From Limosilactobacillus reuteri (GTDB taxonomy: Bacteria > Bacillota > Bacilli > Lactobacillales > Lactobacillaceae): a stretch of DNA of 64,000 bases. The position numbers were made by a program, and so were the translations under genes. Shown here in pieces: positions 31,172 to 47,963 of the stretch. The notes beneath the pieces were generated by a model. That model saw nothing but the letters and a program-made list of their open reading frames with translations, was not told where the DNA came from and ran no database searches. The stretch is taken from positions 1-64,000 of the forward strand of contig NZ_JAJGTZ010000025.1 of assembly GCF_020784725.1 (NCBI RefSeq), written 5' to 3'. Within the stretch, counting starts at the first letter, position 1. Each line of letters starts with the position of its first letter.

Positions 31172-31204
31172 AAAAAGAAGGACCGATGCCTTCTTCCTTT
31201 TTAT
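31172..31204. terminator. Terminator between two small genes
   Basis: AAGAAGG (31175-31181) pairs with CCTTCTT (31189-31195), flanked by A5 and T5, so it could serve both strands. Confidence 0.65.
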
Positions 31205-31503: not shown

Positions 31504-31647
31504 AATGGTCATCCTTTCTTATTATTAATATTATTGTTAGTATAACATAATTTAAGTTATACTCGATGATTGTAAATTATGAAGAGAAGAATGGTAAGAA
31601 AAAAGATACTTAAAAATAAAATTGGTTAAGAAGGGAATGAAATTATA

Positions 31648-32940: not shown

Positions 32941-32965
32941 TTGATGTTGTTTGAAGTATCTTGAA
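32941..32965 (-). promoter_or_regulatory. Triple 10-bp-period repeat ahead of the YcbB/GlnL-type gene
   Basis: TTGAT (32941), TTGAA (32951) and TTGAA (32961) repeat at exactly 10 bp, written on the plus strand. The array is 18 bp upstream of the regulator's start codon, next to its ribosome binding site. It may be an autoregulatory site or a distal part of the arcB control region. Confidence 0.5.
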
Positions 32966-33032
32966 ACACTATTTAATTTTACTCTTTGTGAAGATAATAG
33001 ACAATAGAGCTGCTGTTTTACAAATGTGTAGC

Positions 33033-33046
33033 TGTTTCCGCTTACA
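33033..33046 (+). promoter_or_regulatory. cre-like site upstream of arcB
   Basis: TGTTTCCGCTTACA, read on the minus strand as TGTAAGCGGAAACA, fits the CcpA cre consensus with one clear mismatch. It lies about 100 bp upstream of the probable arcB -10. Confidence 0.5.
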
Positions 33047-33104
33047 TCCTTGTGAATAAAGAAATTGTTGCAAAAAAAATAGTTGAATTTTTTTCTGTTA
33101 TTTA

Positions 33105-33147
33105 TGGAATTTATTTGAAGTATTGTGAAACTTCATCCTATTATAGT
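33105..33147 (+). promoter_or_regulatory. arcB promoter region with triple 10-bp-period repeat
   Basis: TGGAA (33105), TTGAA (33115) and GTGAA (33125) repeat at exactly 10 bp. A -10 TATAGT (33142-33147) follows, with no good -35 at the right distance, as expected for an activated promoter. TTTGAAGTATTGTGAAAC (33114-33131) matches TTTGAAGTATCTTGAAAC at 32950-32967 in 16 of 18 positions. Confidence 0.5.
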
Positions 33148-33178
33148 ACTTGTATTAAGACCTTAGGAGGAAATAAAA

Positions 33179-34186
33179 ATGGCTTTTAATTTACGTAATC
33201 GTAGTTTCTTAACTCTTGCCGATTTTAACACTCGGGAAATGGAATATATGCTTGATCTTGCTGAAGATTTAAAGAAGGCAAAATATGCTGGTTATGAAGG
33301 TAAGAATCTTGAAGGTAAGAACATTGCTTTAATTTTTGAAAAGAGTTCTACTCGTACTCGTTGTTCTTTTGAAGTTGGTGCTAAGGATGAAGGAGCTCAT
33401 GTAACTTACCTTGGCCCATCAGGTTCACACATCGGTCACAAAGAATCTGTTAAGGATACTGCACGAGTTCTTGGTGGAATGTTTGATGGTATCGAATACC
33501 GTGGATTCTCACAACGCAATGTTGAAATTTTAGCTAAGTACTCTGGTGTACCGGTTTGGAATGGTTTGACTGACGAAGACCACCCAACACAAGTACTTGC
33601 TGACTTCTTAACAGCTCACGAAGTATTGAAGAAGCCTTACAAGGATATCAAGTTTGCCTTTGTCGGTGACGGTCAAGACAATGTTTCAAATGCATTAATG
33701 CTTGGTGCCGCTGTAATGGGGATGGAATACCACGTTGTTACTCCTAAGGAATTGGAACCAACTAAGGAAACCCTAGATAAGGCTAATGAAATTGCTGCCA
33801 AGACTGGTGCTAAGATTGTTGTTACTAATGACATCAAAGAAGGTGTCAAAGGTATGGACGTAATCTATGCTGATGTTTGGGTATCAATGGGTGAATCTGA
33901 TGATATGTGGGAAAAGCGGATTAACCTTCTTAAGCCTTACCAAGTAACAATGGATGTTATGAAGGCTACTGAAAACCCTAATGTTCTCTTTGAACACTGT
34001 CTTCCTGCATTCCACAACCTCGATACTGAAGTTGGTAAGGAAATTGAAAAGAAGTTTGGCTTAAAGGAAATGGAAGTTACTGACGAAGTATTCGAAAGTG
34101 AACATTCAGTTGTCTTCCGTGAAGCCGAAAACCGGATGCACACTATCAAGGCTGTAATGGTTGCAACTTTGGGTGAACAAAACTAA
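33179..34186 (+). CDS. arcB: Ornithine carbamoyltransferase (catabolic)
   Basis: Second step of the arginine deiminase pathway: citrulline plus phosphate to ornithine and carbamoyl phosphate. 335 aa. The carbamoyl-phosphate motif is [10 protein letters not shown] (about residues 56-65), ornithine binding is DHPTQVLAD, and HCLPAFHN is near the C-terminus. The N-terminus [15 protein letters not shown] matches catabolic OTCs. AGGAGG precedes the ATG. arcC follows at 16 nt, which argues for the catabolic rather than biosynthetic (argF) enzyme. Confidence 0.95.
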
Positions 34187-34202
34187 TTAGGAGGCATTTG
34201 CC

Positions 34203-35135
34203 ATGGCTAAAGTAGTCGTTGCTTTAGGGGGAAATGCATTAGGCAAATCACCTGAAGAACAATTAAAGTTAGTAAAAAATACTGCTTCCTCATTAATTGG
34301 GTTAATTGCTGCAGGAAACCAAGTGGTTATTAGTCACGGTAATGGTCCACAAGTGGGTGCCATTAATTTAGGGATGAATTTTGCTGCTGAACACGGCAAA
34401 ACTGCTGCTTTTCCTTTCCCAGAGTGTGGTGCAATGAGTCAAGGTTATATTGGCTACCATTTACAACAAAGTTTAGAAAATGAATTACACCACCGTTGGA
34501 TGAATAAGAGTGTGGCAACAATTGTAACGCAAATTGCAGTTGACCCTAACGATCCAGCTTTTGAAAATCCATCAAAGCCAGTTGGTGACTTCTACACTAA
34601 AGAACAAGCTGATGAAATTGCCAAAGAAAAGGGCTACACTTTTAAAGAAGATGCGGGACGTGGATATCGTCAAGTCGTTCCTTCTCCACTACCAATGAAG
34701 ATTATGGAACTTGATAGCATTAAAACATTGATTGATGCTGACAAGCTTGTTATTGCCGGTGGTGGTGGTGGTGTACCTGTAATCATCACTGATAAGGGAC
34801 TTGAAGGAGTTCCAGCGGTTATTGATAAGGACCGTTCAAGTGCATTGTTAGCCGACAAGATTGATGCCGATAAGTTGATTATTTTAACTGCCGTTGATCA
34901 TGTTTATGTTAACTATGGAAAGCCAGATGAAAAAGCCCTTAAGACATTAAACGTTACAGAAGCTCAGAAATACATGAAAGAAGGGCAATTTGCTGCTGGT
35001 AGTATGCTACCTAAGATTGAAGCATGTCTTTCCTTTGTTGAAGGTCATCCAGAACGAGAAGCATTAATTACTTCTTTAGATGGTCTTGATGACGCTCTCG
35101 CTGGTAAAGTCGGGACAGTTATTCGTGATAACTAA
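34203..35135 (+). CDS. arcC: Carbamate kinase
   Basis: Transfers phosphate from carbamoyl phosphate to ADP, the ATP-yielding step of the ADI pathway. 310 aa. Amino acid kinase fold: [37 protein letters not shown] and [13 protein letters not shown]. It lies 16 nt behind arcB with its own AGGAGG and shares its transcript. The transcript would run into the MITE-like hairpin at 35143. Confidence 0.96.
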
Positions 35136-35142
35136 AAAGAAG

Positions 35143-35295
35143 AGGGAGCGAGACAGAAGTCGCTTGTGACTTCGTTTTCGAGCCCCCGCAAGCAACAATA
35201 GGCCTCCAATGTTCGGTTTTGCCGGACGTTGGAGGCCATTGTTGTACTGCGTATTTGCTTTTTATGAAAGTAACTTAACTTATGTCACAGTCCCT
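35143..35295. repeat. Complete 153-bp MITE-like element with long central hairpin
   Basis: The ends are imperfect inverted repeats: AGGGAGCGAGACAGAAGT at 35143 and, read on the minus strand from 35295, AGGGACTGTGACATAAGT. The middle folds as a stem of about 23 bp (CAACAATAGGCCTCC... with GGAGGCCATTGTTG). No reading frame. It lies between convergent arcC and the DMT transporter gene, where the hairpin could act as terminator. Its right half recurs at 345-413. The mobility class is inferred; no target duplication was established. Confidence 0.7.
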
Positions 35296-35310
35296 ACCTT
35301 CTTTTTTTAG

Positions 35311-36222
35311 TTACTCTTTAATTTTTTTCTGTGGAATGCGAATATTAATCGCAAGCACCGCAACGATAACTAAAATCGACCCAAGAATGTCTGCCCCCGT
35401 CATTTGTAAATGAAAAATCAAGACTGAACCAATTGTCGCTGATAAAGGTTCAAATGCGTCCATTAAACTAAATGTAGTTGCATCGATATATTTTAATGAA
35501 TTATTAGCTAGTTGAAAGGGAATTAGGGTCCCAATTACTAGAATACCTAACACATATAACCAAACTGAGGGAACATTTGGAATATGTGGCTGACTAGGAT
35601 GAATAAGCACTAAGGTTAATCCGGCAAATAATAGACCCCACCCCGTAATAATTAACGAGGGAACTCGACCCTCGCGAAGCATATTTTGTGGAATTAATGT
35701 ATTCGTTGCAACGCCAATCGCAGAAATTAGTCCCCATATTAAAACACTAAGCGTCATTGCTAAATGATTAAATTGACCATGAGTTGCGATAATAAAAACC
35801 CCTAAAAAGGCGATAATTGCACTAATAATTTCAATTCGTCGTGGTGGCAAGTGTCGAAACATAGCTTGATAAGCAATGATAAAAAAGGGACCGATGAATT
35901 GAAGAATGGTTGCGATCGAAGCATTCCCATATTGGACAGCCATAAAATAAGCATACTGAACTGGAACTAACCCAAAAACACCATATGCAAAGATAATCCA
36001 TGCAGAATGAAGGTCCTTAAAAATTTGAAAGGGATGCTCGCCACGAATTTGACTTAATAAGACTAAAATAATTCCAGCTGAAACCATTCGAACCTGCGTT
36101 AACCACATCGATGTAATCGAACTACTAACATTAAAAAGAGCTTTCGCAAAAAGCCCTGAAATACCCCAAAAGGTACAGGCGGTAATAATCATCGCTGTAC
36201 CTAAAACTTTTTTATTTGACAT
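35311..36222 (-). CDS. DMT-superfamily (EamA) transporter
   Basis: A 303-aa protein with 10 predicted membrane helices and the two EamA repeats (TFWGISGLFAKALFN in the first, IWGLISAIGVATNTLIPQNM in the second; SATIGSVLIFHLQMTGADILGSILVIVAV at the end). It is a drug/metabolite-type exporter; the substrate cannot be told from the sequence. Promoter region lies between it and the metalloprotease gene; it is a single gene. Confidence 0.9.
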   Translation of the reverse strand: MSNKKVLGTAMIITACTFWGISGLFAKALFNVSSSITSMWLTQVRMVSAGIILVLLSQIRGEHPFQIFKDLHSAWIIFAYGVFGLVPVQYAYFMAVQYGNASIATILQFIGPFFIIAYQAMFRHLPPRRIEIISAIIAFLGVFIIATHGQFNHLAMTLSVLIWGLISAIGVATNTLIPQNMLREGRVPSLIITGWGLLFAGLTLVLIHPSQPHIPNVPSVWLYVLGILVIGTLIPFQLANNSLKYIDATTFSLMDAFEPLSATIGSVLIFHLQMTGADILGSILVIVAVLAINIRIPQKKIKE

Positions 36223-36305
36223 AAAAATACTCTTTCCAATTAGATTTGCTACTTTATTTTACCATACCAATTTTGTGAAGCGTGAGCTCGTCCTTTTAAT
36301 TATGA

Positions 36306-37010
36306 CTATCTGTTGGAATTATCTTCAGTGATGATTGGTTGTGGAGTTCGTGAATATAAAGCCTTCACAGCCTGTATGTCTCGTGATTGAATGGGATAAT
36401 ATGATCCAGCTGGCTGCATCACAGAAATCTTGTTCGTGTGCTGTAGACCAATTGCATGCCCTAATTCATGCTCAGCAGTATTTACGATTCGTTCTTGTGA
36501 GTAGCCAAAGGCAGGATTTAATAGGTAATAAGAATTTAGCTCTACTGTTGCGTGCAGATAATATCCAGTTGCGGAATTCATACTTGTATTGGTGAGCCCT
36601 GCTGCCCCGTTGTTTGGATCGTTAACAGCGGAAACACTAATATTTGCATTCTTATCATTAACGATTTTAAATGTGAATGCCTTCGTGCTATTCCATTGGG
36701 TAATTGCGGTTTCTGTTGCATTCTTTAATACTGGATTGCTGATATTAATATAGATCGTTGCAGAGTTTTGTTCCCAGCGTGCATCAGCAGGTGTATCTCG
36801 TGTTCCAGTTTGCTGGTCAGCGTTTTGTTTAGTTGGGGTTGTAATCTCTTTACCGGTTATTCGGTGTAGCCACGATTGAGTAAGCACCTGAGCATTATGA
36901 ATGCCAATATTAAATTGTTCTTGAAAGGTAGAATTATTTTGATAAAACCAAATAATTCCGCCAAAGAGTAATAAATAAAATAAGGTTAATAAGAAATTGG
37001 ACTTCTTAAT
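36306..37010 (-). CDS. Membrane-anchored matrixin-like zinc metalloprotease, probable ATT start
   Basis: The catalytic zinc motif HELGHAIGLQH and a Met-turn (ISVM) mark a metzincin of the M10 (matrixin) type. The nearest standard start is GTG at 36887 (193 aa), which leaves no export signal and has no good ribosome binding site. The frame stays open 41 codons further and begins IKKSNFLLTLFYLLLFGGIIWFYQ, a textbook signal anchor. An ATT codon at 37010-37008 sits 6-7 nt after AGGGGGTG. I therefore propose an ATT start and 234 aa, with HExxH at about residue 181. A frameshift or sequence error upstream is the alternative. The substrate is unknown. Confidence 0.7.
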   Translation of the reverse strand: MKKSNFLLTLFYLLLFGGIIWFYQNNSTFQEQFNIGIHNAQVLTQSWLHRITGKEITTPTKQNADQQTGTRDTPADARWEQNSATIYINISNPVLKNATETAITQWNSTKAFTFKIVNDKNANISVSAVNDPNNGAAGLTNTSMNSATGYYLHATVELNSYYLLNPAFGYSQERIVNTAEHELGHAIGLQHTNKISVMQPAGSYYPIQSRDIQAVKALYSRTPQPIITEDNSNR

Positions 37011-37085
37011 CGGTCACACCCCCTAATATTCAAATTCTAATTAAAAAAGAGTAAAACGTCCATTATTTAATATTTTTCTTTATTG

Positions 37086-37140
37086 TTGACAACTGTAAAC
37101 TTTGATAGTATGCTGTACCTATAATATGATTACAGTTGTA
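37086..37140 (+). promoter_or_regulatory. Copper-operon promoter with two cop boxes
   Basis: TTGACA (37086-37091), 17 bp, TATGCT (37109-37114). GACAACTGTA (37088-37097) overlaps the -35 and TACAGTTGTA (37131-37140) follows the start region. Both fit the CopY operator KACANNTGTA. The operon is thus expected to be copper-induced by loss of CopY binding. No copY gene lies nearby. Confidence 0.8.
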
Positions 37141-37161
37141 AACTAAAAGAAGGTGGAAATA

Positions 37162-37530
37162 TTGAGAATTGCCGTTATAATTATTGCCCTGCTTTTGATT
37201 GCATTTATTGTTTGGTGGTTCTTCGGAAAGCATACAGAGGCGGCGGGAAAATCAACTATTGTTAATGATGAACAAACTGCAACGATTGTCGTTAATGGTG
37301 GTTATTCTCCATCAACAGTTATCTTGAAAAAGGGAATTCCGGCTCAAGTTAACTTTGATATGCATGACTCGACGGCTTGTTTATCACATGTAGTATTTGA
37401 ACAGCTAGGAGTTAATAAGGACTTAACAAAGCAAAAGATTACGACGATTAATATTCCAACAGATAAAGCCCAGACTTTTAATTTTGCTTGTGGAATGGAT
37501 ATGTTTCATGGAAAGGTGATTGTTAAATAA
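37162..37530 (+). CDS. Membrane-anchored cupredoxin-domain protein
   Basis: 122 aa from a TTG at 37162, 5 nt after AAGGTGG; GTG 37153 is inside the binding site. An N-terminal anchor (about residues 3-22, IAVIIIALLLIAFIVWWFFG) is followed by one cupredoxin-like domain with candidate copper ligands in STACLSHV and the C-terminal [10 protein letters not shown]. It probably binds copper outside the membrane. First gene of the copper operon behind two cop boxes. It is the exported partner of the next gene, whose domain is clearly related. Confidence 0.8.
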   Translation: MRIAVIIIALLLIAFIVWWFFGKHTEAAGKSTIVNDEQTATIVVNGGYSPSTVILKKGIPAQVNFDMHDSTACLSHVVFEQLGVNKDLTKQKITTINIPTDKAQTFNFACGMDMFHGKVIVK

Positions 37531-37817
37531 TGAGTATTTTTTCAAAAGATCAAACTAAAAAAGTTGTTGTTAATGCAGAAAATCATGGCTACAAACCAGA
37601 AATGGTTACTTTCAAACAAGGAAAGCCAGCGCAATTAAAATTTATCCCCTCTGATAATATGGGGTGTATGAATGAAGTCGTATTTAAGGAACTTGGTATT
37701 GATGAGAAGCTAGACGGTAAAAAAGAAGTTACTGTTGATATTCCAACTGACAAGCCGGGAACTTATAACTATGCTTGTGGAATGGATATGTTTCATGGAA
37801 AGGTTGTTGTAAAGTAA
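37530..37817 (+). CDS. Cupredoxin-domain protein without signal peptide
   Basis: A 95-aa protein with the same cupredoxin fold as the preceding gene (shared YxPxxVxxKxGxPAQ, ...[13 protein letters not shown]). It lacks any export signal, so it should be cytoplasmic. Possible ligands are the Cys of GCMNEV and the Cys, Met and His of CGMDMFH. Its start overlaps the previous stop by one base (TAATG), and its stop overlaps the next gene's ATG in the same way. It may be a copper chaperone for the ATPase, or an N-terminal domain that has split off. Confidence 0.8.
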
Positions 37818-39754
37818 TGAAGCTTACAAACATTCAGCGATTTTGGATTTCATTTGTATTATCAGTTCCGATGTTAATACAAATGTTTGCGATGCCTTTT
37901 CACTGGATGATGCCTGCCTATAATTGGATAGCATTAATTACTACTACTATTATTATGGCAATTTCAGCATTTCCATATTGGAAAAGTGCGATCGCTGCAT
38001 TTAAAAAACATAGTGCAAATATGAATACCCTAGTCGCTACAGGAACAGCTGTCGCTTATTTTTATAGTATTTTTGCAATGATAACTGATAGGGCAGTTTA
38101 TTTTGAAAGTGCTGCCTTTGTTACTGTCTTTGTTTTACTGGGGGATGCGATGGAAGAGAAAATGCATAACAATGCTTCCAATGCTCTTGGTAAGTTGATG
38201 GGACTTCAAGCAAAAGATGCTGAAGTCTTAAAAGATGGCAAATTTGTCAAAGTACCACTCGATCAAGTTCAAGTTGGCGACCTTATTCGGGTCAAGCCGG
38301 GTGAAAAAGTACCTGTAGACGGAACAATTCTGGAAGGGGTAACTTCTCTGGATGAGTCGATGGTTACTGGTGAAAGTATGCCGGTAATGAAAAAAGTTGG
38401 CGATACTGTTGTTGGTTCAACAATTAATAATAATGGGACGATTACTTTTAAAGCCACAAAGGTTGGAGCGGATACAATGCTTGCCCAAATTGTTGACCTA
38501 GTAAAAAAAGCGCAAACCAGTCATGCTCCTATCCAGAACTTAACAGATAAGATTTCAAATGTGTTTGTCCCAGCAGTAATGATTATTGCTATTTTGACAT
38601 TTATGATTTGGTATTCCTTTGTTGGCGCAACATTTGTTCAAGCATTATTATTTGCTGTTTCAGTAATTGTTATTGCTTGTCCGTGCGCATTAGGTTTAGC
38701 AACTCCAACAGCATTAATGGTTGGTACTGCAAGAAGTGCTAAGATGGGTGTCCTTATTAAGAATGGTGAAGTCCTTCAAGAAGTAAGTAATATTGATACT
38801 GTTGTGTTTGATAAAACAGGGACAATTACGGTCGGCAAACCAGTTGTAACTGATATTGTTGGCGATGCTAAAAAAGTATTAACAATAGCTGCTAGTCTTG
38901 AGGAATCGTCTGAGCATCCATTGGCATCCGCAATCCTTCAAAAGGCGAAAGATAAAGGGACCTCACCAGTAAAGGTAGATAAATTTAAAGCAATTGAAGG
39001 TAAGGGTGTGCGTGCAGATTATAATGGGCAAGTAGCATTTGTTGGTAGCAATCGGCTTCTGGTTGATGTAAATATTTCCCGGGAAATGGCATCACGTGCG
39101 GAAAAATTACAGAATGAAGCTAAAACAGTTGTTTATGTTGGTCTTGATGGGGAAGTAATCGGCTTAGTTGCCATTCAAGATGTTCCGAAGTCGAGTTCCA
39201 AAGATGCAATTACGGAGTTAAAAGCACGTGGATTAATGACTGTGATGTTAACTGGTGATAATAAACGGGTAGCTCAAGCAATAGCTGATGAAGTCGGTAT
39301 CGATAGGGTAATTGCTGAAGTGATGCCAAATGACAAAGCTCAACAAATTAAAAAACTTCAAGACAATGGTAAGAAAGTTGCCTTTGTTGGTGATGGAATT
39401 AATGATGCCCCTGCTTTGTCGACAGCTGATGTTGGAATTGCGATGGGATCTGGAACCGATATCGCAATTGACTCTGGTGGAATTGTTCTCGTTCAAAATG
39501 ATTTGCGAGGAGTTGTCCGGGCACTTGATATTTCTAAGAAGACCTTTAACAGGATTAAATTAAATCTTTTCTGGGCGCTCATTTACAATGTCATTGGTAT
39601 TCCAATCGCTGCAGGATTATTTGCATTTGTGGGCTTTACTCTTAGTCCTGAGCTTGCCGGCCTAGCAATGGCCTTTAGTTCTGTCTCTGTTGTTAGTTCT
39701 TCTTTGCTGTTAAATAAAACTAAGATTGCGGGAGAGCATGTTGTTCAAGTTTAA
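37817..39754 (+). CDS. copB: Copper-translocating P1B-type ATPase (CopB type)
   Basis: Exports copper using ATP. 645 aa from the ATG at 37817. The membrane CPC motif ([12 protein letters not shown], Cys288 and Cys290), phosphorylation Asp332 in [22 protein letters not shown] and the TGES actuator motif are all present. There is no N-terminal heavy-metal (HMA) domain and no His-rich tail. That role may be taken by the cupredoxin proteins upstream. The first predicted residues ([19 protein letters not shown]) lead straight into membrane helix 1. Confidence 0.92.
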
Positions 39755-39764
39755 ATAAGATGAT

Positions 39765-39800
39765 AAGGAGTTAAGAAATATAATCCTTAGCTTCTTTTTT
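39765..39800 (+). terminator. Terminator after the copper operon
   Basis: AAGGAGTTAAG (39765-39775) pairs with CTTAGCTTCTT (39786-39796) with two G-U pairs, followed by T residues. Confidence 0.7.
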
Positions 39801-39870
39801 GTTATATTTTGCACAAAGTGAAAGGGTTTTGCGGTAAAATATTAATAAAAATGATGGAGGAGTATTTAAA

Positions 39871-40347
39871 ATGGCAACAGCATTTTTAGTTCATACTCAA
39901 CTAAGCTGGGGAAAAACGTGCGATTATTTAATCGCTAATGATGTTGAGCAGGGGTTAATGCATCGTTATGAGACACGAGAAGATTGGCAAGAAGTCATTC
40001 TTGATGCATTGATCAATGTTCCCTTAGCTCCATATTTGCCAAGTGGTCAGCCCATTCCGCCAATTGGAACGGCAAAAGTACTAGGGGTGGAAGCAGTTGA
40101 TCCGGCACAGGTTAAAAAAACTGTGCAACGGACACGAAGTCAATTTATAATGGCAACCATCTGGAAAAAGCAGTCAGTCTTAAAAAACTATAATTTCTTA
40201 CATCATGATTATGACAAATGGACGCAAAAGCAAATTTGGGCCGATGTTGATTATTGGTGTGACTCTAAAAAACATCCTGTTATCGATTTGATTACAAAAT
40301 GGCGTTGCGCCCGTCAATACCAACGATTACGTGCTGAAGAGAAATGA
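39871..40347 (+). CDS. Conserved hypothetical protein, 158 aa
   Basis: No family recognised. A Trp- and Lys-rich, soluble protein (ATAFLVHTQLSWGKTCDYLIANDVEQGL...) with no signal peptide. The middle has a Pro-rich loop (PSGQPIPPIG) and the C-terminal third is basic and helical. It starts at ATG 39871 after ATGGAGGAG and ends just before the tRNA-Gln promoter. The well-placed start and codon usage support a real gene. Confidence 0.65.
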   Translation: MATAFLVHTQLSWGKTCDYLIANDVEQGLMHRYETREDWQEVILDALINVPLAPYLPSGQPIPPIGTAKVLGVEAVDPAQVKKTVQRTRSQFIMATIWKKQSVLKNYNFLHHDYDKWTQKQIWADVDYWCDSKKHPVIDLITKWRCARQYQRLRAEEK

Positions 40348-40357
40348 TAAAAAAGAG

Positions 40358-40386
40358 TTGACTATTAAGTCACTTCCATGTATAGT
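40358..40386 (+). promoter_or_regulatory. Promoter of tRNA-Gln
   Basis: TTGACT (40358-40363), 17 bp, TATAGT (40381-40386), 25 bp upstream of the tRNA. Confidence 0.7.
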
Positions 40387-40411
40387 ATATATCGTTGTAA
40401 GTTTATTTTAT

Positions 40412-40484
40412 TGGGCATTCGCCAAACTGGTAAGGCAGTGGACTCTGAATCCATAATTTACTGGTTCGAGACCAGTATGCCCAA
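40412..40484 (+). tRNA. tRNA-Gln (anticodon CTG)
   Basis: The acceptor arms TGGGCAT and ATGCCCA pair, and the T arm is CTGGTTCGAGACCAG. The anticodon loop CTCTGAA places CTG at positions 34-36, which decodes CAG. CCA is not encoded. It has its own promoter and terminator. Confidence 0.93.
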
Positions 40485-40492
40485 CTTCTAAC

Positions 40493-40526
40493 AAAAGACC
40501 TGCTAGCTAATCTAGCAGGTCTTTTG
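40493..40526 (+). terminator. Terminator after tRNA-Gln
   Basis: AAAAGACCTGCTAG (40493-40506) pairs perfectly with CTAGCAGGTCTTTT (40512-40525). Confidence 0.9.
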
Positions 40527-40575
40527 TTGATAAGAAAGTTATTTGTTATAATTACAGTCAAGTGAGGGGACGAAT

Positions 40576-40905
40576 ATGGCTAGTAATTCTGATTCAATTT
40601 ATTATGTTTTAACAAAACTAAAGCATCATCCATCGTTAATCAAAAGTATTAGACCACGTTATACTAATACGGTTCTGATTCTTTTTGCTGACTCCTTAAA
40701 AATAGCTGATGCTTCATTTTATTTTCCGGTTGATCGTTTTATGGTCAATCGTTTGTCAAATGATTTTGTGGCAAAGAATGGTGATCTTCTTGATAGTTAT
40801 TTTTTAATGACCAATGGAACGAAGAAAAATTACCATGATGTTTGGGCAACGACCTGTCATATTCCAGAAAAGAAAGTATATTTATTAGAATTATCATTTG
40901 AATAA
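40576..40905 (+). CDS. Hypothetical protein, 109 aa
   Basis: No family recognised. A soluble protein (ASNSDSIYYVLTKLKHHPSLIKSIRP...) with alternating strands (TNTVLILFADSLKIADASFYFP). It starts at ATG 40576 after GAGGGG and is flanked by a tRNA gene and a decayed antiporter gene, so it sits in a small accessory island. Confidence 0.6.
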   Translation: MASNSDSIYYVLTKLKHHPSLIKSIRPRYTNTVLILFADSLKIADASFYFPVDRFMVNRLSNDFVAKNGDLLDSYFLMTNGTKKNYHDVWATTCHIPEKKVYLLELSFE

Positions 40906-40966
40906 CACAATTTAAGCTGCGACAAAAGGTGCCAAAGCTTATTTGCTATAAAGGAAGAGTTTTGGA

Positions 40967-41384
40967 GTGCTGGTTTCAACGATTACTTTAATGGTAGCGG
41001 CAGTTTTAAGTAGTATTCTTTCCAGCTTCTTTCTGCACTTCTGAATTGATTATGTTAGGCTTTTCGTCGGCTTAATTATTGGCTTAGTTCCTTTTTTTGA
41101 ATGGTCATATTGCTCCCTTCCACACAGAGATATTTATGTATATAGTAGCTCCGTTGATTTATTTTGAGGGGCAAGCAACGAGAATTAATCTGATTGGAAA
41201 AAGATTACGACAAATCCTTGAAATGGCTGTTCTTTTAGTAATTGTCGGAACGGTATTTGCAGATTTTAGTGTATCGCTTTTGGTAATTCCACTAGCCCTG
41301 GCATTTCTGATGGACGCTTTAAGCACACCAACTGATGCTACTGCAACTGAGTCAATTTTACTTGACATTGAAAATGAATATTAA
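40967..41384 (+). pseudogene. Decayed CPA1-type Na+/H+ antiporter (NhaP-like), N-terminal remnant
   Basis: From GTG 40967 the frame reads VLVSTITLMVAAVLSSILSSFF, meets a TGA at about 41042, and continues with VRLFVGLIIGLVPFFEW. A frame change near 41103 is then needed to continue into HTEIFMYIVAPLIYFEGQATRINLIG...LSTPTDATATES. These pieces in order are the first 150 or so residues of a CPA1 sodium:proton antiporter. The remaining roughly 450 residues are missing, replaced by ILLDIENEY and a stop. The gene is dead through at least a nonsense codon, a frameshift and a 3' deletion. Confidence 0.85.
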
Positions 41385-41401
41385 ATTAATTTGATTTTAA
41401 G

Positions 41402-41430
41402 TTGACGAAAAATTGAAATTAACGTATACT
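41402..41430 (+). promoter_or_regulatory. Promoter of tRNA-Glu
   Basis: TTGACG (41402-41407), 17 bp, TATACT (41425-41430), 16 bp upstream of the tRNA. Confidence 0.7.
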
Positions 41431-41446
41431 TTTACTTGTACGTTAT

Positions 41447-41519
41447 TGCCCGCTGGTCAAATTGGTTAAGACGTCGCCCTCTCAAGGCGGAGTTACGGGT
41501 TCGATCCCCGTGCGGGTGA
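41447..41519 (+). tRNA. tRNA-Glu (anticodon CTC)
   Basis: The anticodon loop CTCTCAA with stem CGCC/GGCG gives anticodon CTC, decoding GAG. The D arm (TGGTCAAATTGGTTAAGA) and the T arm (ACGGGTTCGATCCCCGT) are tRNA-Glu-like. The acceptor 1-72 pair is a weak U-G, so the exact ends are uncertain by one base. CCA is not encoded. Confidence 0.88.
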
Positions 41520-41528
41520 ATATGATTG

Positions 41529-41561
41529 AGTCTGTTACTCATTTAGTAACAGACTTTTTTA
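41529..41561 (+). terminator. Terminator after tRNA-Glu
   Basis: AGTCTGTTACT (41529-41539) pairs perfectly with AGTAACAGACT (41545-41555), followed by T6. Confidence 0.9.
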
Positions 41562-41664
41562 TTTATATTACAAATTTAGTAAAAGCGTTAAGAAAAGGCT
41601 TAATTGATGCTATGATGGATTTATGTAGATAGAAAAAGAATAGGATGGATTTGGTGAGTTAATT

Positions 41665-42525
41665 ATGCGAGTAATGAATTTAATGATAGTATTAGCAGTT
41701 ATTGTGATTATTATTTTAGCTGCTCAATATTTTTCTCAGTTACGGAAAAACCGCAACGGTAATAATTTCGTAAGTGGGGGCCGTGTCTTTTTTAACTGGA
41801 CGTTGGTCGCTATCTTGGTAATTTGTGTTGGGGGAATAATTTTTGGTAGCATTCATTCACATCGCCAAGAAGCAAAGCCAGCCCAAACTGATAAGACCGA
41901 AAATGTTGAATATACTGCTTCTGACAGTGATAATTTGGGAAAAGTCTCAGTTCAGTTTGATCGGAAAGTTACTTTAAATGATAATGGAGAAGCGAAAGTT
42001 AAGTTTAAGGTTTCTCCACAAACTACTTTGACAATCCGGGGACATAAGAGCAAAGAGATTGTTAAGATGTTCAAAGCAAGTAAGGGCGAATCATTAGTTA
42101 ACCATACTTATACATTTGATGTAGCGGGCACTTATGATATTATTGCAGAACGTGGTGATCAAAAGGTAACTAAGCAGTTAAAGGTTAAGGACAATGATAA
42201 TACCCAAGAAAGTTCATCAAGTAGCAGTTCAGTAAGTTCTAGTTCTTCTTCAGTCGCTTCCTCAGCAAGTAGTAGTACAGTTTCCTCGTCTTCAAGCTCG
42301 ACTGCTTCCACGGTGCAAAGTAACAGCGCAAGTTCAAGCAGCACGACAGCAGCTTCATCGAATAATGGAGGAAGCTCAAGAAACTACAATACTTCTCGTC
42401 CACGATATAGTGGCAATGGCGGTGGAAATAGGACCTCTGGTAGCAGTACGCCAACTGCTCCTGCGCAAGAACCAAGTACTCCTGCCTATAGTCAAGAAAA
42501 CGATGGTGATAGTCCGCAATATTAA
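41665..42525 (+). CDS. Membrane protein with Ser-rich extracellular tail, unknown function
   Basis: A 286-aa protein. Two N-terminal membrane helices (about 5-24 and 45-66) are followed by a beta-rich domain (about 85-170: KVSVQFDRKVTLNDNGEAKVKFKV...AGTYDIIAERGDQKVTKQLKV) that looks like an Ig-like or pre-albumin-type fold. About 55 residues of almost pure Ser/Ala/Thr/Val follow, then a Gly/Asn/Ser/Pro tail. There is no LPXTG motif. I do not recognise a family; it may be a wall-associated membrane protein. The start has a modest GGTGAG binding site. Confidence 0.7.
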   Translation: MRVMNLMIVLAVIVIIILAAQYFSQLRKNRNGNNFVSGGRVFFNWTLVAILVICVGGIIFGSIHSHRQEAKPAQTDKTENVEYTASDSDNLGKVSVQFDRKVTLNDNGEAKVKFKVSPQTTLTIRGHKSKEIVKMFKASKGESLVNHTYTFDVAGTYDIIAERGDQKVTKQLKVKDNDNTQESSSSSSSVSSSSSSVASSASSSTVSSSSSSTASTVQSNSASSSSTTAASSNNGGSSRNYNTSRPRYSGNGGGNRTSGSSTPTAPAQEPSTPAYSQENDGDSPQY

Positions 42526-42575
42526 TTTCTAATCATAATCAAATATCTAATGATAAAAGAATAAACTATTTTTAA

Positions 42576-42626
42576 AGGAACAAAAGATAATTTTTTCATA
42601 TGAAAAATTATTCTTTTGTTCTTTTT
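42576..42626 (+). terminator. Terminator after the Ser-rich membrane protein
   Basis: A stem of about 17 bp (GAACAAAAGATAATTTTT with its complement, one bulge) is followed by T5. Confidence 0.8.
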
Positions 42627-42694
42627 CTATTATCATCAACGGCGAAAAATTATTGATATATCAAGGATGAAAAGCGAAAAATATTAAAAAAGAT

Positions 42695-42758
42695 ATTACT
42701 AAATAATTTATCAGTATTGAAATAAGAATGAAGTATATTATACTCATTACTAAATAAT
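42695..42758. repeat. 13-bp direct repeat upstream of the Mub-like gene
   Basis: ATTACTAAATAAT occurs at 42695-42707 and 42746-42758, exactly 51 bp apart, on either side of AT-rich promoter-like sequence (TATTATACT at 42737-42745). It may be regulatory or chance in AT-rich DNA. Confidence 0.4.
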
Positions 42759-42799
42759 AGTTATCGAATTATAAAAGTCTTTAAGGGGGAGAAAAAAAG

Positions 42800-45700
42800 A
42801 TGCTTGATACAGATGAGATCAAAAAAAATGAGGTACTTGGTGTTGAGCTTGCCCCAGTTGAAACTGTTGGCGGACAAGTAAAATTAGGGGGGGAATCTGC
42901 TTCAAGCGTTGCTTCACTCAATAGAACGCCATTATTGGAAAAAATGCTTAAAGCAGCGCCCAATTTTGCGGCTCAACAACAAAAATTGAACGGCCAAGAA
43001 CCGGTAATAAAAAATAATCCAGCATTAGGTGAATATCAACTAATTGATGATTTAGGTGGCTTAATGCATGGGACTTACTTACAGGCAACTAATAGTGATA
43101 GTCAGGATAAAGGTCGTTCGATTGTAAGTCGTAATTCAATGAGTGAAACGGCATCATTAGTTAATTATCGCGCAGCTACTGACTTTAGTGGATATGGTCA
43201 TTTGAAAAATAATACAGAAACTACCAAATCAGTTGAAGTTGTCTATACGCTGCCTACATTTGAAGTGAAGCAAGGTACAGCACAAATTGTACTTGATGGG
43301 GCGCGGATTAATGAATTTGACGGCCTTGAATATAAGGATGAAAAGGGAAATGTAATTCCTGGATTTGATATTACCTATAGTTATCAAGGACACGAAGGAG
43401 AGTATTCGACGATTGATACTCTTAAGCAGCGTGATGATTTTAGTTGGGAAAAGGTAACAGCGGTTATGGTATTTGGTTCTTTATTGCCAAACAGTTCTTA
43501 CCGTGTTGAATTTCCTTTTAAGATTACAAATCTAGAAAACATTAATACTCAAGAGCAATTTAATTTAAATGAATATGCCTTTTACGATTTAACAGTTAAT
43601 AAGCACACAACGTCACAATTAAACTTCCGCTTAAGTACGCCTATTTTTGCTCATGATGCCTATCAAAATATCCCATTTATGGCACTTAACCGGACTGAAG
43701 ATGGTGATCAAGTATTTTCAGAAGATGTTCAAGCAATGATGCCAACGTTGGGTGAAGTACCGTATGCAATCAGTAACTTTAATAATGATGTTTCATTTGA
43801 CGTTGATGGGGATAAGGTAATGTGGCAGGGCGGTCAATACTTCTTTAAGCTGGCCACTATTCAAAGTGCAATTCAGGAAAAGGGCTTTTCAGTAAATGTT
43901 GATATAACAGGACGAAAGTTAATGGGTGCTTCCGCATTCATGGTTCAACCTACTTATCTTGATTTTGAAAGCTTTGACTTTGTTCCCTATGTCGTTATTC
44001 ATCAACTCCTTATTACTAAATCATTTACTCTTAAGGCAGAGGCAAAAGATGATTGGACTTCATTTGGCGGAATTGAAAAAGTTTGTGGTCTCTCTTCAAC
44101 TAATGAGGAGCTTCCGGTTAGTCCTGAGCAAACATTTATTGTTGATGATTCTGAATTAGTAGGTGCAACACCTGGTGATTATAATGTTATTATTGGTTAT
44201 TTTCTTAACGGGAGTGAGGATAATGATATGTTAATCACCTCACCAGCAAAGGTAAGGATAGTTGAAAATAAACAGACAATTAATGTTTACTATGTTGACT
44301 TGATTAATATCCCCGATAAAGCCAAAGATGATTTACAACCAAGTGACGGAAAAATTCTCGAAAATCAAACCCAAACTTTTACCGGTAAAGGTGATGAAGA
44401 TTATCATAACCAACTCTGGGGTGAAGAAAATGGTTTTGAGATTTATAAATATGAACAAGGCGCTAAATTAGGAACATATGTGGGTGGACAGCCAACTAAA
44501 GATTACTATGTTTATCTTATTCATAAAATTGAAAAAATCGATGAAGATCACCAAGTAACCAGAACTATTACTTTTAATATGCCAGATGGCTCTAAGCAGG
44601 TCATTAAGCAAACTGGAAAAATTCAGCGTTTTGGAATTATAGATAACACAACCGATGAAAAAACATGGAGTGATTGGAGTAAAGCTACTCTCCCCGCAGT
44701 TGCCGCACCACGTATTCCCGGATATACGGGTAAAAATGTTGATGCTGAAGCAATTTCATTAACTTCAAAAGATAGCAATATTAACGTTATCTACCATCCC
44801 AAGCAAGTTAGTGTCAAGATTAAATACGTCGATGAAGCTGGAAATGAAATTGATGAACAAATAATTTCTGGACTTGCTGGCGATTTGATCAGTCATAAAC
44901 CAACGGTTGAAACGGATCGGCTTGCTGATGAAGGTTATGTGATTATTGACAATGAACTACCGCAAAATGCCCGCTTAATGGCTGAAGACGGTGATCAAGA
45001 AAAAGAATACAAGATTATTGTTAGTAAACAAGATCTACAAACCCAACAAATTACTGTTTTTTATGTTGATGTCCCTGATAATCGATTACCAATTGTCAAA
45101 CCTTCTTCTGGGCGGATTATTGATAATCAGACCCAAAGATTAAATGTTACAGAAGGACAAACGTATAGTAATGAACTATGGGATTTTGCAGATGCCGGGT
45201 ATGAATTGTTTAAGGCTGACAAAGGGGCATTAAAGGGGGAGTACTTTGCTGGTAGTCCAGAACAACAATATTATGTTTATCTTACACACCAAACTACTCC
45301 TCTAAAGAAGGAGCATCATGTAACGCGAACTATTCAGATTACTATGCCTGATAAAACCCAACAAGTTGTAACTCAAGAAGCAATTGTTACTCGTTTTGGT
45401 GTTCATGACGAGGTGCTTGGGAGCGATATTTGGCAAGCATGGAGCAAGGGAGTGATCCCTGAATATATTCCAGCACCCATCGCGGGGTATGATGCACCTG
45501 CTATTCCTGCTGAACAGGTTGATGAAAATGCGAGCGCTCGAAATGAAAAGATCAGTTACACTCCACAACCAGCTAAAATTCTAGTTAAATTTATTGACCA
45601 AACTGGTGCAGAATTAACATCCGAGGAGCTTACTGGGGTAACCGGTGAAGAATTTAACTATGATCCAACTCTTCAAATTAAATCATTTGAGGATGAGGGC

Positions 45701-45910
45701 TATGTCCTTGATGAGAATAGTTTTCCAGCTGATCATCATTTTGCAGCCGGGACACAAACCTATACTATTACCTTAAAGAAATTAATGGCAGTGACTCCTC
45801 ATGGTAATAGTAAGACGGAATCATCAATTGAACAAATTAAGTCGATCGATGATGATACAACTGGAGATAAAAGGGGAATCTTTGCTGCATTTAAAGGCTA
45901 TTTTAAATAA
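42800..45910 (+). CDS. Large Mub-repeat (MucBP-type) protein lacking signal peptide and anchor
   Basis: A 1036-aa protein. The first 460 or so residues form a beta-rich region that resembles adhesin N-terminal modules. After it come two mucus-binding-type repeats: about 490-740 (INVYYVDLINIPDKAK ... ITFNMPDGSKQVI ... VSVKIKYVDEAGNEID) and about 750-1000 (ITVFYVDVPDNRLP ... IQITMPDKTQQVV ... ILVKFIDQTGAELTSEEL). Unusually there is no signal peptide at the N-terminus (MLDTDEIKKNEVLG) and no LPXTG, membrane segment or anchor at the end (GIFAAFKGYFK). The ATG follows GGGGGAG, so initiation looks normal. Mucus binding is inferred from the repeats only. Confidence 0.8.
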   Translation: MLDTDEIKKNEVLGVELAPVETVGGQVKLGGESASSVASLNRTPLLEKMLKAAPNFAAQQQKLNGQEPVIKNNPALGEYQLIDDLGGLMHGTYLQATNSDSQDKGRSIVSRNSMSETASLVNYRAATDFSGYGHLKNNTETTKSVEVVYTLPTFEVKQGTAQIVLDGARINEFDGLEYKDEKGNVIPGFDITYSYQGHEGEYSTIDTLKQRDDFSWEKVTAVMVFGSLLPNSSYRVEFPFKITNLENINTQEQFNLNEYAFYDLTVNKHTTSQLNFRLSTPIFAHDAYQNIPFMALNRTEDGDQVFSEDVQAMMPTLGEVPYAISNFNNDVSFDVDGDKVMWQGGQYFFKLATIQSAIQEKGFSVNVDITGRKLMGASAFMVQPTYLDFESFDFVPYVVIHQLLITKSFTLKAEAKDDWTSFGGIEKVCGLSSTNEELPVSPEQTFIVDDSELVGATPGDYNVIIGYFLNGSEDNDMLITSPAKVRIVENKQTINVYYVDLINIPDKAKDDLQPSDGKILENQTQTFTGKGDEDYHNQLWGEENGFEIYKYEQGAKLGTYVGGQPTKDYYVYLIHKIEKIDEDHQVTRTITFNMPDGSKQVIKQTGKIQRFGIIDNTTDEKTWSDWSKATLPAVAAPRIPGYTGKNVDAEAISLTSKDSNINVIYHPKQVSVKIKYVDEAGNEIDEQIISGLAGDLISHKPTVETDRLADEGYVIIDNELPQNARLMAEDGDQEKEYKIIVSKQDLQTQQITVFYVDVPDNRLPIVKPSSGRIIDNQTQRLNVTEGQTYSNELWDFADAGYELFKADKGALKGEYFAGSPEQQYYVYLTHQTTPLKKEHHVTRTIQITMPDKTQQVVTQEAIVTRFGVHDEVLGSDIWQAWSKGVIPEYIPAPIAGYDAPAIPAEQVDENASARNEKISYTPQPAKILVKFIDQTGAELTSEELTGVTGEEFNYDPTLQIKSFEDEGYVLDENSFPADHHFAAGTQTYTITLKKLMAVTPHGNSKTESSIEQIKSIDDDTTGDKRGIFAAFKGYFK

Positions 45911-45921
45911 ATGAAATTAAT

Positions 45922-45977
45922 AAAGGAGTACAGAAGGAATAAACCACTAATGGTAAATTTCTTCTGTACTCCTTTTT
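45922..45977. terminator. Bidirectional terminator
   Basis: AAAGGAGTACAGAAG (45922-45936) pairs perfectly with CTTCTGTACTCCTTT (45961-45975), followed by T residues. The lipoprotein gene converges on it. Confidence 0.85.
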
Positions 45978-45989
45978 GAGTTAAAAATA

Positions 45990-46589
45990 TTAATTATCAT
46001 AATTGCCAGTGATTGGGTTCATTTCATGGATTTGATTTGTAGCGGGATCATATTGATAGGTACCAGTAAGATGAGCTACATTTGGATCGCCGCCTTGATT
46101 ATTGCGAACTTCAATTTGATAATTATTATTTTGATTATTCTTAGTCATGTAATAATGATTGCCATCTTGTTGAACGCCACTTGTCTTGACAAAACTCGTT
46201 AGGACTTGTTGATCGTTTTGTGATGAGGAAGTGGAATTAGTAGTTGCTAATTGGCTGCTAGAACTACTAGTTATGGATGAACTAGGAGCTTTTATCGTTT
46301 GATTAGTTGGCTTTTCTGAACTGTTAGCTGCTGTGGCCTTTGAACTTGCAATTGTTGGGTTTGTATTTATTGAAGAAGTAGATTGTACACTAGTAGATGT
46401 GGAGGCTTGATCCTTTGCTTTTTCGCTACTAGTAGAGGAGACTGCCTTCTTGCCTGTTTGTTGACTTACTTTTGTCGCGGAAGTAGATGTTTTTGTTGGA
46501 GCTGCTGCACTATTCGTACACCCGGCTAGTCCTAGGGCGGCTAAAATTACTAACGAACTTGCTAAAACTTTATTTGTCATCTTCATCAT
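45990..46589 (-). CDS. Secreted lipoprotein, Ser/Thr-rich
   Basis: A 199-aa protein. The N-terminus MKMTNKVLASSLVILAALGLAGC is a type II signal peptide with lipobox LAGC (Cys at about residue 24). About 95 residues rich in Ser, Thr, Ala and Lys follow, then a small C-terminal domain (VLTSFVKTSGVQQDGNHYYMTKN...YQYDPATNQIHEMNPITG) similar to lactobacillar DUF4767-type lipoproteins. It is probably tethered to the membrane with a wall-spanning stalk. Function unknown. The minus-strand start follows GGGGGTC. Confidence 0.8.
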   Translation of the reverse strand: MMKMTNKVLASSLVILAALGLAGCTNSAAAPTKTSTSATKVSQQTGKKAVSSTSSEKAKDQASTSTSVQSTSSINTNPTIASSKATAANSSEKPTNQTIKAPSSSITSSSSSQLATTNSTSSSQNDQQVLTSFVKTSGVQQDGNHYYMTKNNQNNNYQIEVRNNQGGDPNVAHLTGTYQYDPATNQIHEMNPITGNYDN

Positions 46590-46779
46590 TTTAATGACCC
46601 CCTCAACTTCTCTTTTTTATAAAATTCTTATAACTATATTATACCGTCTTTTGAAATGATTTTGTAATATTTTTAACTTATTTGTCATAATCAACCAATT
46701 ATGTTTAATAATTTCTTAGATATTTTTCCTTTGCCTGAGTTACGTTAAAATAAACTTTATTGAGGAAGTGAATTAAACG

Positions 46780-47799
46780 ATGAATAAATACGATTTAACA
46801 ATTACCAAATTACATCAAATGGTTAAAGAAGGGATTGTTCCGGGAGTTAGCTATTTGATTTTTGACCGTCAACATACAATTAAAGAAGTAACAGGGATGG
46901 CTCAAGTGTACCCTGAAACTGAAAGATTAAAACCCGACATGCTCTATGATGTTGCTTCATTAACAAAAGTAATAGGAACAGTTCCAGTTATTGCCATGCT
47001 TATTCAGAAAGGAGCATTGGCTTTAGATGATCCGATAAAGAAGTTTTTGCCAAAATTTAATGATGACCGACCAACTATTCGCAATCTTCTTACCCATACT
47101 TCTGGGATTGCTGGTTATATTCCACATCGTAATGAGTTGGATGCCGTTGAGCTAAAGAAGGCTTTTTTGACGAAAATGCATGTGGAGGATAGTTTGAATC
47201 GTCAAATCAAATATGCGGATGTAAACTATTTATATTTAGGATGGATTATCGAACGAATTTATAATCAACCAGTTCAAAAGGTTATTGCAGAACAGGTTCT
47301 TAAACCATTAAAAATGCCAACTGCGACATTTAGGCCTCAACCAGCTAACTGTGTCCCAACAGAAGTACAAGAAAAACGGGGCTTAATTAGAGGAGAAACT
47401 CACGATCCTAAAGGGTATATTTTGGGAGAAAATTGTGGATGTGCTGGCCTCTTTGCATCATTAAAAGATTTAGAGATTTTTAGTCATGCGCTTATTGAAA
47501 ATAATTTAAATGGCCTTCTTACTTCTGAAACAACTAAGCTTCTTTTTACAGACCAAACACGAATTTCTGGTCCACATAGTCGCTCTCTTGGATGGAAACT
47601 GTTTCACGCTAAAGATCGTCATCTTTTGATTAGTCACACTGGGTTTACAGGAACTTGGATGGTGTTAGATCGTCAAACTGACCAAGGTTTTATTGTATTG
47701 ACAAATCGTGTTCATCCCAGTGCTAAAAATCAAGAATATTTAGATGCTCGTGATCAACTTTTTGCAATTTATTTAAAAGAAAAAGAAAAAACTTTGTGA
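46780..47799 (+). CDS. Serine beta-lactamase-fold hydrolase (class C / penicillin-binding-protein-like)
   Basis: A 339-aa protein. The active-site SxxK is SLTK in LYDVASLTKVIG (about residue 64), the YxN motif is YADVN, and the third motif is HTG (LISHTGFTGTW). There is no signal peptide, so it is probably a cytoplasmic esterase or peptidase-like enzyme rather than an antibiotic-resistance enzyme. Family members of this length often hydrolyse esters or D-amino peptides. Single gene with a weak promoter upstream. Confidence 0.9.
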   Translation: MNKYDLTITKLHQMVKEGIVPGVSYLIFDRQHTIKEVTGMAQVYPETERLKPDMLYDVASLTKVIGTVPVIAMLIQKGALALDDPIKKFLPKFNDDRPTIRNLLTHTSGIAGYIPHRNELDAVELKKAFLTKMHVEDSLNRQIKYADVNYLYLGWIIERIYNQPVQKVIAEQVLKPLKMPTATFRPQPANCVPTEVQEKRGLIRGETHDPKGYILGENCGCAGLFASLKDLEIFSHALIENNLNGLLTSETTKLLFTDQTRISGPHSRSLGWKLFHAKDRHLLISHTGFTGTWMVLDRQTDQGFIVLTNRVHPSAKNQEYLDARDQLFAIYLKEKEKTL

Positions 47800-47819
47800 A
47801 ATTTATATGCAATTAATTG

Positions 47820-47963
47820 AATAACCGCTTTCACAGAATATGCGCTTTATGGGTGAAAAATGTATAAAAACTGTTGATAATTTATATTAATAACTTCTTT
47901 TTATATAATTCACTAAATATTGATTTGACGGCATTTGACAACGTTTACATAAACTAATATGAT
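47820..47963 (+). promoter_or_regulatory. arcA promoter with cre sites and triple 10-bp-period repeat
   Basis: TTGACA (47935-47940), 17 bp, TATGAT (47958-47963). TGACAACGTTTACA (47936-47949) fits the cre consensus at 13 of 14 positions and overlaps the -35. AATAACCGCTTTCA (47820-47833) is a second, weaker cre. TTTGAC (47924), TTTGAC (47934) and TTTACA (47944) repeat at exactly 10 bp, as upstream of arcB. TTTGAAGTATC recurs on the minus strand near 47992-47982. Confidence 0.65.

Follow-up and report, generated by a model that had tools for sequence, protein, structure and literature searches.

The two-component system GlnK-GlnL (YcbA-YcbB) of Bacillus subtilis has been described as an inducer of glnT in response to glutamine (PMC2743287), and a similar pair of Bacillus cereus, BC1742-BC1743, adjoins an amino-acid operon with a putative cre (catabolite-responsive element) site (PMC2358912). 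In Streptococcus iniae SF1, a kinase-YcbB pair labelled as glutamine utilization (K710_1925/1926) has locus tags neighbouring those of a second ornithine carbamoyltransferase (K710_1923) and a carbamate kinase (K710_1922); no link to arc genes is drawn in the passages on these genes (PMC3951389). Maule et al. (2015, PMC4395418) also reported an enrichment of YcbB effector domains in aspartate-less receivers; note that "lactobacill" is absent from the main text of that study and that its section on aspartate-less receivers is without arc genes. Here we describe an orphan response regulator of the YcbB/GlnL family encoded in 64,000 nucleotides of Limosilactobacillus reuteri DNA (assembly GCF_020784725.1, contig NZ_JAJGTZ010000025.1, positions 1 to 64,000; this whole stretch is further referred to as the window), where its gene is divergent from arcB-arcC (Table 1). 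Sequence comparison with related genomes makes it fairly probable that this kinase-less GlnL-type protein acts locally at arcB-arcC, where it would bind two operators, designated R and B, activate arcBC and repress its own gene. A connection of YcbB/GlnL regulators with arc genes was not found in the open-access articles searched, subscription journals being largely outside this search.

The regulator consists of a receiver domain (residues 5-114; PF00072, 63 bits) followed by a YcbB DNA-binding domain (residues 156-274; PF08664, 103.3 bits), i.e., it has the domain order of the YcbB/GlnL response regulators. A search of the whole 2.0-Mb genome (G000) bore out the view of an earlier note, made from the letters of the window, that this protein next to arcB is the sole regulator of its family. 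The same note had pointed to three copies of about TTGAA at exactly 10 bp upstream of the regulator gene, arcB and arcA, and had proposed that they represent one repeat type, through which the regulator controls the arginine deiminase genes. The letters are indeed present: TTGAT, TTGAA and TTGAA at 32941, 32951 and 32961; TGGAA, TTGAA and GTGAA at 33105, 33115 and 33125; and TTTGAC, TTTGAC and TTTACA at 47924, 47934 and 47944. The first two sets, i.e., sites R and B, proved to be of one type, judging from a cross-genus matrix and their conservation, and the third set dropped out (see below).

The matrix has 27 columns and was trained on 19 of 25 candidate sites from other genera, so all Limosilactobacillus sites were outside the training set. 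The training sites came from 18 kinase-linked loci and the kinase-less L155; the kinase-less L149, L150, L152, L153 and L165 were omitted, as was L154, whose cut region misses the site. When both strands of the window were scanned, R and B took the first two places, and the third place scored 7.3 bits. Neither of the two scores was reached in 200 dinucleotide shuffles, where the best single score was 19.7 bits and the mean best score 7.7 bits. Within the genus, the window included, a site above 5 bits is present in 27/29 regulator halves and 22/29 arcB halves of the shared upstream DNA, compared to 0.38% of shuffled intergenic regions. Alignment of the 29 regulator-arcB upstream regions revealed two TTGAAG-like blocks of 10-bp period in most rows, one at the regulator end and the other at the arcB end, with a poorly conserved stretch between them. 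The window genome is close to the reuteri group, and among its named relatives are L. balticus, L. agrestis, L. rudii and L. caviae. One record, L044 (G324:C1 ~505325-509329), was left out of the alignment, and its arcA region (L080) is counted among the 30 arcA regions considered below. In L044 the genes follow each other without intergenic DNA, the regulator gene being on the same strand directly before arcB; this record looks like concatenated coding sequences unfit for promoter work.

The arrangement is that of a tandem direct repeat with TTGAAG as its unit. In 62 intergenic regions of the family, [TC]GAA pairs on the arcB-sense strand occur 102 times at 10 bp, 59 times at 20 bp and 19 times at 30 bp, compared to 0, 3 and 0 times on the opposite strand. 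The exact pattern TGRW-N6-TGAAG-N5-TGAAAC matches site R only and misses the site at 33105, whose first unit TGGAA is imperfect. A further model, R1, built from 24 sites with R and B of the window among them, was used to scan the 2.0-Mb genome G000. Site R was the best match (E 3.3e-4), followed by 33107-33131, i.e., site B (E 7.2e-4), and the next match had an E value of 0.068. With R and B alone being prominent in the whole genome, the regulon in the window genome appears to be local, and no site stood out in this search that would place a glutaminase or glutamine-transporter gene under the regulator. Matches in two sister genomes at loci distant from arc (L209 and L195) were considered as further regulon members; as far as could be judged, they do not occupy a promoter-like place before a frame and were taken as chance. 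From these data, the regulator very probably binds R and B.

The position of the operators relative to the predicted promoters suggests what binding would do. In the arcB promoter, the three units of site B occupy positions of about -45, -35 and -25. The third unit mostly begins 13 nt upstream of the -10 box (partly by eye) and ends 7-8 nt before it; in most kinase-linked training loci, site B is 44-49 nt from arcB. The arcB -35 hexamer shares mostly 2-4/6 letters with TTGACA and is followed by an 18-bp spacer, compared to 6/6 letters for arcA. Such a poor -35 box suits an activator-dependent promoter. Note that the promoter script missed L133-L136, L147, L153 and L155 and shifted several hexamers, and that the -10 distances were partly read by eye. 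Site R is located between the predicted transcript start of the regulator gene and its ATG, just downstream of the predicted promoter, which suits autorepression. This promoter is weak evidence when taken alone (3 promoter-like sites in the stretch versus 1.9 in shuffles), and reuteri-group rows look similar by eye. A cre-type site lies between R and B and matches the consensus WTGNAANCGNWNNCW exactly. The consensus has 3 matches in the window, versus 1.22 expected, with at least 3 in 9/100 shuffles. At several of the kinase-linked loci, a cre-like TGAAACCGCTTnC is continuous with the third unit (by eye).

We therefore propose the following mechanism. A YcbB/GlnL-type regulator that has lost its sensor kinase would serve as a local regulator of arcB-arcC and would bind head-to-tail to three 10-bp units (~TTGAAG-N4) at each of two operators in the shared upstream DNA. 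Bound to site B over the poor arcB -35 box, it would recruit RNA polymerase, activation being the most likely outcome; bound to site R just past the start of its own transcript, it would block its own synthesis, most likely as an autorepressor. The cre site between R and B would add sugar repression by CcpA. That the regulator activates arcB appears likely to us.

The regulator gene travels together with arcB. Among 50 Limosilactobacillus genomes, 31 possess both a YcbB-type gene and arcB, 17 possess neither, and two are discordant (relatedness being uncorrected in these counts): G310, which has only an arcB that is 48% identical, and G330, an 86% complete genome. In G303, the only YcbB-type gene is of the kinase-linked kind. 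The regulator gene is divergent from arcB in 28/30 fetched arcB loci, the window included. Across the fetched loci, ArcB is 88-100% identical to that of the window and the regulator down to 37%; the regulator diverges and yet stays beside arcB, i.e., the pairing has been kept despite its fast evolution. In other genera of the Lactobacillaceae, we found 26 YcbB loci (all matches better than E 1e-25; the partial G221, E 1.9e-13, was left out). In 22 of them the YcbB-type gene faces arcB directly or via the kinase gene, three face a yfcC-type gene alone, and one faces neither. In 16/26, a kinase gene is present and the pair faces arcB and then a yfcC-type gene, with arcC between them in 14 of the 16. 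The arcA gene is mostly not adjoining in these kinase-linked loci, although it is near in L143 and L144. The closest model for the yfcC-type protein is "putative basic amino acid antiporter YfcC", with 274 bits, which is below its cut-off of 500 bits. We infer that the cluster of kinase-YcbB, arcB and yfcC-type genes is a citrulline or ornithine/arginine exchange system. Further YcbB copies in Limosilactobacillus (L157-L163) are kinase-YcbB pairs opposite a lone yfcC-type antiporter gene, arc genes being absent, and represent a parallel system within the genus; in L160 (G231), the YcbB gene is apparently interrupted, residues 1-82 and 90-276 being matched ~1 kb apart.

Several points weigh against the proposed role of the regulator at arcB. 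The seed for collecting the training sites was picked once the motif had been seen. Site B scores below 5 bits in 7/29 regions, five of which (L067-L071) are arcB-arcC-arcA clusters, and R is the better kept of the two sites. Site R fails in L066 and L071; in L066 no regulator is present within 1.5 kb, so that its "regulator half" is mere upstream DNA. An R1 match at the arc locus (E 0.1) was found in only 17/32 YcbB-bearing genomes of the genus, a weak match elsewhere is present in 2/18 genomes without YcbB, and in G335 a match that looks unrelated equals site B in quality (E 7.5e-4). In a published expression study of L. reuteri, arcA, arcC and argF are found in one ArgR set (R = 0.89 each), and "response regulator" is absent from its main text (PMC10949432); argF and arcB may be one and the same gene. 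This co-variation suggests shared control by ArgR or CcpA and weighs most among the arguments against the YcbB regulator having a leading role. Finally, the third unit of site B lies in the spacer between -35 and -10, a place equally suited to repression.

The last point bears on the alternative that the regulator represses both genes, with site B blocking the polymerase at arcB until an inducer frees the promoter. The location of the third unit and of R downstream of the predicted start are the usual places for a repressor. However, the poor arcB -35 box in most rows suits an activator, and the B. subtilis pair is reported as an inducer of glnT (PMC2743287); we regard repression of both genes as unlikely. 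Another explanation is that the arc genes are under the sole control of ArgR, CcpA or some other nitrogen regulator and that the YcbB gene is a passenger with purely autoregulatory sites. The cre matches at both arcB and arcA, the ArgR-type gene behind arcA, the co-variation of arcA, arcC and argF (PMC10949432) and the better conservation of R would all fit, as would the GlnR sites predicted at arcA,B of Streptococcus pneumoniae (PMC3412718). Nevertheless, site B is kept across genera at the distances from arcB and its -10 box given above, and the YcbB gene is co-inherited with arcB. An ArgR-box pattern gave 11 matches versus 9.77 expected, none of them at arcB or arcA, and this test is weak. 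Sole control by such regulators appears improbable to us. The possibility that R and B are chance products of A+T-rich intergenic DNA with TGAA runs is negligible, since self-similarity at the 10-bp period alone is indeed not rare (13 window positions reach the score of the first triple and 141 that of the other two) but the shuffles and shuffled intergenic regions described above contradict it. Thus, activation of arcB-arcC by the YcbB regulator, combined with autorepression, is the explanation that we prefer.

The situation at arcA, ~14 kb away, is different, and here the proposal of the earlier note stood only in part: the regulator very probably binds the repeats at its own gene and at arcB, and direct control of arcA was not supported. 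With the operator matrix, not one of the 30 regions upstream of arcA reached the threshold, and positions 47915-47960 score -25. The second unit of the supposed arcA repeat is the -35 box TTGACA of a promoter kept in relatives, and the overlapping cre site ATGTAAACGTTGTCA accounts for most of the repeat. The conserved element is ~TTTGACAACGnTTnCA, present in nearly all of the 30 rows, the exceptions being L080 (the artefact record) and L102 (arcA inside a cluster). The first TTTGAC copy is unconserved even among the reuteri group and may be due to chance. The minus-strand TTTGAAGTATC that the note had seen near arcA is present as well; it has a matrix score of -14, is confined to the reuteri group and adjoins the ribosome-binding site. 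Downstream of arcA lie an ArgR-type gene and two antiporter-type genes. Judging from its cre site, arcA is probably controlled by CcpA, and probably also, according to the published analysis (PMC10949432), by ArgR rather than by the YcbB regulator. In other genomes of the genus, arcA follows arcB-arcC beside the regulator gene only in G005, G154, G306, G311 and G332, where alone the regulator could reach it. G154 possesses two nearby arc clusters (L166, C1:403000-422000, and C1:422046-423267), each with a YcbB gene; one cluster has a stop in the regulator gene, stops in arcB and an unbroken arcA, and in the other arcB is unbroken and arcA broken.

Table 1. Features of the regulator-arcBC region and of the arcA region (positions in the window).
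Feature	Position	Strand	Basis
Orphan response regulator gene	32084..32923	-	Pfam domain matches, residue alignment
Site R, three TTGAA-like units at 10 bp	32941..32967	+	Cross-genus matrix, 23.6 bits, top of window
Predicted regulator promoter TTGTCT-17-TAAAAT	32976..33004	-	9/12 consensus letters
cre-type site ATGTAAGCGGAAACA (CcpA), between R and B	33033..33047	-	Exact match to WTGNAANCGNWNNCW
Site B, three units at 10 bp	33105..33131	+	Cross-genus matrix, 21.5 bits, second in window
arcB promoter TTGAAG-18-TATTAT	33115..33144	+	-35 position = middle repeat unit
arcB, catabolic-type ornithine carbamoyltransferase	33179..34186	+	Protein family matches
arcC, carbamate kinase	34203..35135	+	TIGR00746, 392 bits
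arcA promoter TTGACA-17-TATGAT	47935..47963	+	11/12 consensus letters; kept in relatives
cre-type site ATGTAAACGTTGTCA overlapping the arcA -35 box	47936..47950	-	Exact cre match
arcA, arginine deiminase	48006..49238	+	Protein family matches; unsupported as target in window genome

The regulator of the window appears to have lost its kinase. No kinase frame is located beside its gene, and no GlnK-type kinase was matched at E 1e-10 in the window genome. Such kinases are present in 9/50 genomes of the genus, and the eight fetched kinase loci all adjoin a YcbB-type gene, which in G303 and G330 is the sole one of the genome. A tree of 61 regulators is divided by one branch (support 100/99) into a kinase-linked and a kinase-less side, with the window regulator on the latter. 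For the tree and the residue counts, we set aside L044, then L043 and L166-L171, which are duplicates, and the broken genes of G230 and G231 (in G231, the second gene); in L158, the second YcbB gene lies at a contig end, which leaves the absence of a kinase uncertain. All 26 kinase-linked proteins possess the two residues of the acidic pair as well as D53 and K103. Among the 35 kinase-less proteins, D53 is kept in 16 and K103 in 24, the full set is present in three, and the phospho-aspartate has been lost in 19, with at least four changes of D53 on the regulator tree. The window protein itself keeps D7 and, like its own branch, D53 and K103, with N8 at the second acidic position of the pair; having D53, it does not belong to the aspartate-less receivers. 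Note that the kinase split is a single event, so that aspartate loss together with kinase loss is not a repeated correlation. Both domains are under purifying selection, the ratio of nonsynonymous to synonymous substitution rates (dN/dS) being 0.00-0.10 where computable (10 pairs, several with saturated dS), also in the two computable aspartate-less pairs (L067-L068 and L069-L070). It is tempting to speculate that a two-component regulator has here turned into a kinase-free arginine deiminase regulator, whose receiver remains under selection, whose phosphorylation site has decayed repeatedly and which reads the pathway directly, carbamoyl phosphate, the ArcB product, being the donor where D53 remains and a bound metabolite acting elsewhere. 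This idea is a tentative one, possible rather than probable.

Furthermore, the operator is found outside the Lactobacillaceae. In L267 and L272 (Bacillota), the same operator precedes a symporter gene (Pfam Na_Ala_symp) beside a kinase-YcbB pair, and in another phylum, on plasmid pZRK30-3 of Fusobacteria bacterium ZRK30 (L212:5828-5968), a triple TGAAG operator adjoining such a pair precedes a metallo-hydrolase gene followed by a symporter gene. In all three cases, the -10 box is 34-35 nt from the first base of the operator, as at arcB. These three are the loci above 5 bits among 30 distinct scored loci of other groups (L213 and L214 fail; the scoring did not include L216-L246). When 61 loci of other groups were searched generically for triple repeats, 12 loci had one at 10 bp, versus 1-5 loci at periods 7-9 and 11-14 under the same threshold; this result is suggestive only, four of the 12 being near-copies from one genus. 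As the layout recurs beside kinase-YcbB pairs elsewhere, a tandem operator of 10-bp period fits the YcbB family. Moreover, the Lactobacillaceae kinase resembles one that is encoded in another Bacillota genome and belongs to a symporter-linked system (34% over 232 residues). Together with the same distance between operator and -10 box at symporter genes, this likeness makes it seem that an ancestral GlnL-type system and its operator were rewired to arcB. The locus tags of S. iniae (PMC3951389) suggest that the same cluster exists outside the Lactobacillaceae.

Tandem boxes at 10 bp are a trait of Spo0A-like proteins, which prompted a comparison of folds. The C-terminal domain of the regulator gave a confident structure model (predicted local distance difference test 95.3), and a Foldseek search of PDB with it gave no chain with an E value of 0.001 or lower, so that a Spo0A-like DNA-binding fold was not supported. 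With the full-length model, the 50 structure matches listed were receivers or receiver-containing proteins, judged by their titles, and the best 60 of 222 sequence matches in PDB are confined to the receiver, extended at most by some adjacent residues. A 102-aa frame close to the regulator gene (31204-31512, minus strand) has no Pfam match.

These results name a likely dedicated regulator of arginine and citrulline breakdown in a genus with probiotic members, where the published analysis credits ArgR (PMC10949432). They provide the YcbB/GlnL family with a defined operator across the genera of one family; isolated examples come from other Bacillota and from a plasmid of the Fusobacteria. In addition, regulators sharing one operator and one target gene are available in three natural stages, i.e., kinase-linked with an intact receiver, kinase-less with the aspartate and kinase-less after its loss, and this series lends itself to experiments on the release of a response regulator from its kinase.

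How does the locus compare with the known systems? BC1742-BC1743 of B. cereus, in contrast to the window, possesses the kinase and has been suggested to act in aspartate metabolism (PMC2358912). The window protein differs from the receivers without aspartate in keeping D53, which 19/35 proteins of the kinase-less branch lack. With GlnK-GlnL of B. subtilis it shares the receiver and the YcbB domain; GlnK-GlnL, however, has its kinase and targets glutamine genes, whereas the apparent targets in the window are arcB-arcC and the regulator gene itself. The receiver is partly or wholly degenerate in the kinase-less branch, unlike that of GlnL, and the unit in the window reads TTGAAG. The site of Bacillus GlnL is said to be TTTTGT-N4-TTTTGT, which is likewise a tandem with a 10-bp period. 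Control by ArgR and CcpA, as in lactic acid bacteria, is represented in the window by the cre matches at arcB and arcA and the ArgR-type gene after arcA, but neither regulator accounts for R and B. Neither the ArgR nor the CcpA family has a receiver or a YcbB domain. The kinase-YcbB systems of other Lactobacillaceae differ from the window in having a kinase, an intact receiver (in 26/26 kinase-linked proteins) and a YfcC-type antiporter gene, mostly without an adjoining arcA, and they share with it the same operator at arcB and the same divergent placing.

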